Both the position numbers and the translations under genes were made by a program. The notes under the pieces were generated by a model. That model saw only the letters and a list, made by a program, of their open reading frames with translations. It made no database searches and was not told the origin of the DNA. From positions 992,001 through 1,056,000 of the forward strand of contig QPFY01000006.1 in the NCBI GenBank assembly GCA_003665825.1: a stretch of 64,000 bases of DNA, read 5' to 3'. Each line of letters starts with the position of its first letter. Position 1 is the first letter of the stretch. Origin of the DNA: Microbotryum silenes-acaulis (taxonomy: Eukaryota > Basidiomycota > Microbotryomycetes > Microbotryales > Microbotryaceae). This document shows positions 45,710-48,312 of this stretch, one piece after another.

Positions 45710-45926
45710 CTGGCGCTAGTGCCTGAGAGTTTGACTCTTGAGAATGCAAAGTACGATCCTCTCACTCGCACGTCTCTCTGCAATTTTCAGTGGAAACTCG
45801 ATGTTTTATTTTGCACACTCAATTGATCCACTCCTCGGGTCAGGTCCGAGCGCCTATAGAGCGACGCTTCCTAACCACGAGAATGGCCCAACAGACACGT
45901 CAAATGCATTACACGACATCAGATAA

Positions 45927-48312
45927 TCACTACATGGGCAAAGGCAAGGCAGGAGATGTCAGCGTGCCTCTCGTAGGGAGAAAGACGATCCAGAATACAA
46001 CTCACAAGCTCGTCGTGGTGGTCAGCGATGACGGTCTGTTCGCTAGCAGCCCCTCCAGCTACGGCGGGCTCATCAGCGGCGCTGATGTCGTTGGTCGCGT
46101 TAGACTCGAGGAACTCGACCAAGGACTCAAGCGTACGGTCACCCTCGTACGAGATCCATTCGTTGGTGTTGGCAGCGCGGAACTTGATGGTGGGGAAGCC
46201 CGAGACGCGGAAGCCAGCCGAGGCGGGGACGTCGTTCTCGGTCGCGTCGAACTTGGCGATAGTGACCTTGGACTTGGCGCCGGCGTACTTCTCTCCAAGC
46301 TCATCCCAAGTGGGCTTGAGCTTCTTGCAGTGGCCGCACCACGGGGCGTAGAACTCGACGAGGAGATCTTTTGACTTGTCGGCGACCACCTCATCGAACT
46401 GGTCGGCCACGAGCACAAAGACGGACTCGTCTTGCGAAGCGGGAACCTTCTCGGACTTGATCGAGGCGGCGATCTTGCCACCGAGGAAGTCCTGAACGAA
46501 GGCCGAAATGGTCTTGTGGTCGACGGGTTTGGACTGGTCGAGTGGGAACTTGGTCATCTCCTGGATGTTCTGGATGGCGAACGATGGCCACGTAGGCTCG
46601 AGGAGGTTGAGCGACTTGGCGTGGTCAGCAAACTTGTTGGCATCGATCCAGACAAAGTTAATCTTGCCCTTGTGCTCGCGGGCGATGGGCTCGATCGACT
46701 TGGTGATCTCGCTGCGCTTCTCGTGATCATCGGGAATGAAGATGTAAGCAAGAGGAATGCCCGCTTCGGCGTACATGGCGAAGTTGTCGGGCGAGATCTC
46801 GTCGAGAATGGGGACGGTGTGCTCCTTGGCGAACGCATCGAGTGCCTGGGACGAGAACTTGTCGGTGAAGTCGTTGCGGCCCTCGTCGAAGGTCTTGTAG
46901 AGAACAACGGCAGGCGGGGTCACGCCGGCGACCTTCTCGGCATCATGGGAGAGACCAAAGAGATAATCGTCGCGATGGGACTCGGCGAAGGCGGTGAAAA
47001 CCTCCTTGCTCGTCTTGTCATCCTCAGCAATGTAGGCGATGAAGACGAGCTTGTCAGCCTTGGAGAACTCGTCGTGGGTCGAGGCGGTGACATCCGAAAT
47101 TGCGGGAAGAAGTTGCCTGAGAGCGAAGAAAGAGTCAGTACGACTTGGCCTGCACACCGTGAAGGCCGTGGAGATTAAATTCACTTTTTCATGTGAGAGA
47201 CTGTTCGAAACAAGCAACGGGACGATGCAGAAGTCAGTATTGCAGATTCTGCTTGGTCATCCGAGAGCAAGTGTGACTTTAGGTGCGAGGAACGTACCGA
47301 TACCATCGGTCTTGCGACTTCCACCGTAGTCGGACGATTCACCCTTGCGGAAGATCTTGAGTGTGCTGTGAAGCCAGGAGCGTACAAGATGTAAGCCTCG
47401 TGATCTAGGGTGAGGTCTGGAGCTACACCCCAAAGCACAGACAAGGGGCCATGTGGCGCGCTCGTTCGGCCACGATAACGGTCAAAGTGACCCGGTTCAA
47501 CTTACGGGTAGCCCGAAACACCGTGGGAGCTGCAGAGGTCGGCTTCAACGGTGCAGTCGACCTTGGCCAGTACGACGCCGTGCTTGGCGAGGATGTCGGA
47601 TGCCTCATCGTACTGTGGGTGGGAGAGAGGAGAGAGAGAGGACGAAACGGCGGACGGGAGAGGCGTACGCGAGGCAGACAGCGGACAGCGGACAGGACAG
47701 GAGGACGATTCGGGCTTGGTCAGCGAGCGTTCTGCGGGATTGTGGCGCGGCAGTGGCTGCTGTGCGCTGGCCGGCCTGGCCGTCTTCGGGTGCGCGCGAA
47801 CGACGCTTGGCTCGGGAAGGAAGCCCAAGTGTGGCGCGCGCGCACGAGTCCGGCAGGCAGAGGCACATTAGGCAAAGCTGGGGGAGCTTACGTGAGGTGC
47901 CAAAGCCTTGCAGTGACCGCACCTGGGTGTGCATAGGATCGACAGTTGGAACGGCACGATGTCAGTATCGAGTGCGCTTTCATCAGGACGTATCATCAAC
48001 ACGGTGCAGCAGACTCCATGAACGTTGCTGCCACGTGCTAGCCGCCGAAGGAATTGCCACGTCGCCACTTTTGGCTCCAACCGTCGACGATGTCTCACCG
48101 CGTGCAGCATCCTACAACACCTCGATCGCACCACGAGCGTCGAGTAGACGATGGAACACATTCCGAATGATCACGTACCAGGGGGCAAAGAACTCGATCA
48201 AGGACAAGTCACCCTTGGCCACCTCGTCAAAGTTGGCCGTGGTCAAGTCAATCACGGAGCTCGCTCGAGCGGCAGCGTAGAGCGCGGCCGTAGCCAAAAG
48301 AGAGAACCGCAT
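45927..48312 (-). CDS. PDI1: Protein disulfide isomerase with HDEL signal
   Basis: Seven exons close exactly in phase: 48312-48179, 47922-47892 (31 nt), 47612-47506, 47365-47298, 47200-47185 (16 nt), 47116-46006 and 45929-45927 (stop codon only), giving 489 residues. A signal peptide (MRFSLLATAALYAAARASS) is followed by thioredoxin domain a with PWCGHC split across exons 1 and 2. Domains b and b' follow, then domain a' with EFYAPWCGHCKKLKPTW, the cis-Pro region VSGFPTIKF, an acidic Ala-rich tail and HDEL. It forms and rearranges disulfides in the ER. The last intron (46005-45930, GTGAGT to TAG) lies between the HDEL codons and TGA. If it is retained, the frame runs on for 24 more codons and hides HDEL. 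Confidence 0.93.

Follow-up and report, generated by a model that had tools for sequence, protein, structure and literature searches.

An intron separating HDEL from the stop codon in a protein disulfide isomerase gene of Microbotryum silenes-acaulis

Targeting signals that depend on splicing

Protein targeting that is conditional on splicing is of a kind already known, since splice forms of human P3H1, peroxisomal splice forms of fungal enzymes and intron-retention forms of a wheat protein disulfide isomerase (PDI) have all been reported. The human P3H1 gene (LEPRE1) is described as giving rise to isoforms a, b and c, with retention of intron 14 removing the KDEL signal (PMC9956579). In fungi, peroxisomal and cytosolic forms of GAPDH in Ustilago maydis and of Mdh in Yarrowia are reviewed as products of splicing (PMC3798809). 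The Drosophila serpin Spn42Da (Spn4), crystallised in a form that has a likely ER-retention signal at its C-terminus, has isoforms destined for different cellular locations (PMC4006314), and the wheat gene TaPDIL1A is reported to produce splice forms of the intron-retention type (PMC4355359).

Here we describe a PDI gene of the basidiomycete Microbotryum silenes-acaulis, found in a 64,000-nt stretch of contig QPFY01000006.1 (the whole of the DNA analysed around the gene, hereafter the window), in which the last intron of the predicted coding region parts the codons of the ER retention signal HDEL from the stop codon. By comparison of the published descriptions, we regard human P3H1 as a nearer match to this case than the peroxisomal splice forms, as it too is an ER enzyme with a C-terminal retention signal that depends on a late splice. 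The two differ in that P3H1 is reported to lose its KDEL by a frame shift, whereas in the Microbotryum gene HDEL is encoded ahead of the intron, whose retention would bury it by lengthening the protein. An earlier note on this DNA had likened the locus to the splicing-controlled peroxisomal targeting of basidiomycetes. That precedent is genuine according to the review, and it shares with our gene a fungal C-terminal targeting signal that is conditional on alternative splicing, but there splicing adds the signal by producing the form with PTS1, whereas retention of the PDI intron would remove the ER signal (PMC3798809). For P3H1, moreover, the isoform transcripts have been reported, and the U. 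maydis and Yarrowia cases likewise come from published work, whereas the two forms of Microbotryum PDI are predictions from genomic sequence. The remaining systems are more distant: Spn42Da directs its isoforms to different locations by alternative splicing, as reported, but through alternative exons rather than retention of an intron behind an intact HDEL, and TaPDIL1A, although a PDI gene with alternative splicing of the intron-retention type, is described as affected in its first exon and as keeping KDEL in all four forms.

No description of a fungal PDI with an intron parting HDEL and stop, and no earlier case of a splicing-gated ER retention signal in a fungus, was found in the open-access literature searched, mainly titles and the starts of abstracts; at that level, the papers that bring together HDEL, intron retention and the endoplasmic reticulum concern plants.

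The PDI gene and its last intron

The gene occupies positions 48312-45927 of the minus strand and has seven exons in our spliced model, the product of which is 489 residues long, contains two CGHC sites and has the C-terminus ...EQTVIADHHDEL. Exon 1 (48179..48312, minus strand, as are all features below) holds the ATG, an N-terminal signal-peptide-like stretch and the beginning of the first thioredoxin domain, and its model is consistent with Microbotryum PDI proteins; exon 2 (47892..47922) carries CGHCKALAPH and is followed by exons 3 (47506..47612), 4 (47298..47365) and 5 (47185..47200), the last of these being 16 nt in length. The inactive thioredoxin folds, the second catalytic thioredoxin domain, the tail and HDEL are all encoded by exon 6 (46006..47116), on which Pfam recognised PF13848 (Thioredoxin_6) and PF00085 (Thioredoxin), and the solved structures matching this exon are proteins named protein disulfide-isomerase. 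The protein has the composition of a classical PDI (PDIA1/Pdi1), with two catalytic CGHC thioredoxin domains flanking two inactive thioredoxin folds and a C-terminal ER retrieval signal, HDEL, once the message is spliced.

The HDEL codons (CAC GAC GAG CTT, 46006..46017) close exon 6 at 46006 and are directly followed by GTGAGT, the donor of a 76-nt intron in phase 0 (intron 6, 45930..46005). This intron ends with the acceptor TAG (45932-45930), whose AG lies at 45930-45931 and is directly followed by TGA (45929-45927); because the intron is in phase 0, the coding part of exon 7 (45927..45929) supplies the stop codon alone. In these respects, and in the count of six exons ahead of the stop-only exon, the sequence and the spliced model agree with the earlier note, as does the ending of the spliced message in HDEL and stop, which the phase 0 model bears out and which the HDEL ends of Microbotryum relatives fit. 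The note had also taken the acceptor to be the next AG after the donor, which does not hold, as AGs occur earlier, in GTGAGT itself and in ACGAGAGG. The acceptor AG is, rather, the first after CTGAC (45962-45958), a motif match to the branch-site consensus and a putative branch site. The sequence of intron 6 has the properties of a spliceosomal GT-AG intron, namely a donor, then a branch-like site, then an acceptor, and a reading frame that is restored on removal, and its GTGAGT and CTGAC, judged by eye, are no weaker than the signals of introns 1-5. An 18-base word at the junction is present once in the genome (29.85 Mb, 88 contigs). RNA structure was considered as a means of controlling splicing at the junction and was rejected, the junction RNA not being unusually structured (z 1.12; 170/200 shuffles fold at least as well). 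Further downstream, an AATAAA at 45805..45810 may serve as polyadenylation signal.

When intron 6 is retained in the reading, the frame continues past HDEL for 28 codons (VSCILDRLSPYERHADISCLAFAHVVII) to a TGA at 45921-45919 (extension and stop together, 45919..46005), giving a product of 517 aa as compared with 489. The earlier proposal that read-through hides HDEL therefore stands, with the extension amounting to 28 codons and not to the 24 that had been given. That this frame is open is unremarkable, as it is likewise open in 46% of shuffled copies of the intron; it is what chance would provide and no sign of selection. The last 12 residues of the tail are hydrophobic (mean 2.55); a membrane- or GPI-anchoring role was considered but not favoured, this hydrophobic end being short. 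A protein database search with a 49-residue tail query found no protein bearing the retained tail: two of its six candidates had E <= 10, and both are Microbotryum PDIs ending in HDEL, with 95-100% identity over 43% of the query, a coverage that corresponds in length to the query residues as far as HDEL.

HDEL ends among homologs and across the genome

In a homolog search, 5244 proteins passed the threshold, and the figures that follow rest on the best 120 of them. The C-terminus is HDEL in 91/120 and ends with EL in 118/120 of these best matches, and none of the 120 carries the 28-residue read-through tail. The two that lack the EL end are a protein of 326 residues that stops short of the tail region (P0037) and Sporobolomyces salmonicolor SPOSA6832_03516 (P0016). 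The closest proteins among the matches listed were those of Microbotryum, in keeping with the origin of the window in a species of that genus: MVLG_06268 of M. lychnidis-dioicae and the PDIs of M. saponariae and M. intermedium showed 97%, 99% and 91% identity, respectively, in alignments covering 93% of the query. For M. lychnidis-dioicae, the gene models are reported to have been updated with RNA-Seq, and nutrient-limited, rich and late-infection RNA-seq samples are described (PMC4469406). All three proteins end in HDEL, which fits the spliced reading proposed here, although a stop codon placed directly behind HDEL in these relatives would account for such ends equally well. Pattern scans for related fungal DNA yielded 33 matches in a genome contig collection and 41 in a viral contig collection, with 0 confirmed in either.

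Across the genome, the pattern GAYGARYTN followed at once by GTRNGY, which represents DEL or DEF codons running into a donor-like site, occurs at 67 places, as compared with 42 for a reversed-pattern control. All 67 were examined (60 distinct contexts, the other 7 places repeating a 70-nt context already in the set). Some YAG directly followed by a stop codon exists within 300 nt in six of the 67, PDI included, and only in PDI is this combined with a CTRAY located 18-45 nt before the acceptor; PDI is also the sole HDEL in the set. KDEL precedes the donor at two places (L014 and L071), neither of which has both a YAG-stop acceptor and a branch-like site. Within the window, 3 of the 404 GTRNGY sites satisfy comparable acceptor criteria, that of PDI intron 6 being one of the three. 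The pattern for an intron placed inside the signal (HDE/L with a donor) was found at 18 places versus 5 in the reversed control, and in none of the 15 of these 18 that were examined did Leu and a stop come after an acceptor. For EEL ahead of a donor, the genome and the reversed control gave 49 places each.

HDEL codons with a direct stop were matched at 10 places, eight of them true HDEL-stop ends, versus 11 for the reversed control; the count alone therefore displays no excess, and some of the eight may have arisen by chance. A Pfam scan covered four of the eight frames, the others being short ones of 12 to 48 residues, and one of the four scanned scored above the curated cut-off, while frames of 55 and 207 residues had no match for the parts scanned. 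The only other confidently identified HDEL gene encodes an Hsp70 ending in SNHDEL, by inference the ER form, in which the stop directly follows HDEL. An intron between HDEL and stop thus looks like an exception in this genome, although HDEL genes are so few that a single chance placement of an intron behind HDEL would not be astonishing.

Two further observations were made in these scans. Eight of the 67 places with DEL or DEF codons (L005, L011, L013, L022, L048, L049, L050 and L058) have in common a reading frame that ends in ...SQWQPDEF ahead of GTGAGT, which probably marks a transposable element or another kind of dispersed repeat. In addition, a frame on contig 11 at about 1128473 (L038), weakly EI24-like and below the Pfam cut-off, ends in HDEL with a direct stop.

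Probable constitutive splicing and other readings

We consider it probable, at roughly 0.75, that the gene encodes an ordinary ER-resident PDI whose last intron, normally removed, happens to lie in phase 0 between HDEL and the stop codon, with any retention representing leakage. The spliceosome would normally remove intron 6 and so yield a PDI ending in HDEL, as suggested by the sequence model and by the proteins of the relatives. A message that retained the intron should escape nonsense-mediated decay, because its stop lies in the last exon with no junction downstream, and would be translated into the 517-aa PDI with its HDEL buried. The HDEL receptor requires its signal at the C-terminus; the long form would therefore be beyond retrieval and should leave the ER. 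What we expect from retention is a low-level leakage of a little HDEL-less PDI, rather than a regulated switch. We take the intron to be real, neatly placed and cheaply testable, and infer that its splicing is most likely constitutive. In another basidiomycete, Cryptococcus, 7% of intron-retention events are reported to be theoretically capable of yielding an alternative protein, and the authors conclude that alternative splicing adds little to protein diversity; they also report that alternative splicing, which consists mostly of intron retention, is regulated by environmental cues and growth conditions (PMC5006051), and by analogy this regulation would count against a constitutive intron.

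The same responsiveness of Cryptococcus intron retention to growth conditions (PMC5006051) speaks for a regulated retention switch, a candidate use of intron 6 in which the cell would control its splicing and thereby either keep PDI in the ER through HDEL or release it with the 28-residue tail burying that signal. The exact phase-0 placement behind HDEL, a retained frame that is readable and terminates within the last exon, the uniqueness of PDI among the 67 donor-like sites and the precedent of human P3H1 isoform c, which is reported to keep intron 14 and lose KDEL (PMC9956579), all point the same way. We nevertheless judge such a switch improbable, as the splice signals of intron 6 look normal by eye, the matches of the tail search are PDIs that end in HDEL and cover only 43% of the query, and the openness of the retained frame is expected by chance. 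Slightly less probable again is the more specific proposal that Microbotryum, and possibly other Microbotryomycetes, secrete PDI with the 28-residue, hydrophobic-ended tail through regulated retention of the terminal intron, for example during infection or ER stress.

Terminal introns are coupled to 3' processing, and intron 6, the final one in the coding sequence, ends ~120 nt ahead of the possible AATAAA signal. The intron might accordingly serve expression, its splicing being coupled to the export of an abundant mRNA or to the making of its 3' end, with its place behind HDEL having no meaning for targeting; we hold this to be unlikely, to a degree similar to that of the secretion proposal, and the Hsp70 that ends in HDEL, with its direct stop, argues against it. 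By far the least probable reading is an assembly error, in which the true sequence would have a stop directly after HDEL and no intron. The HDEL-ending proteins of the relatives are as compatible with an immediate stop as with one brought up by splicing, but an error of one base would not produce a donor together with a branch-like site and, exactly before TGA, an acceptor, and the scarcity of donor-like sites in the window with such an acceptor (the 3 of 404 that include the PDI site) likewise weighs against it.

Were retention both real and regulated, the choice between keeping the cell's main disulfide-forming enzyme in the ER and letting it leave would depend on a single intron, and this would offer a plant-infecting fungus a simple route for releasing active PDI. 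If it is not regulated, as the preferred reading of a constitutive intron supposes, the gene would still offer a clean example of a targeting signal that depends on the last splice, and also a caution for gene prediction, in that a last exon consisting of a stop codon would be easily misplaced.

Several database models of homologous proteins showed irregularities of their own. S. salmonicolor SPOSA6832_03516 is alone among the best 120 of the 5244 homologs in continuing past HDEL (HDELRTRAI), and its model also departs from the other homologs ahead of the second domain; its end may reflect an error in gene prediction, with the last exon called across a terminal intron comparable to intron 6. 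The M. saponariae model contains extra residues at the positions of window introns 1 (48178-47923) and 2 (47891-47613), and the M. intermedium model at that of intron 2, in both cases probably reflecting mispredicted splicing.
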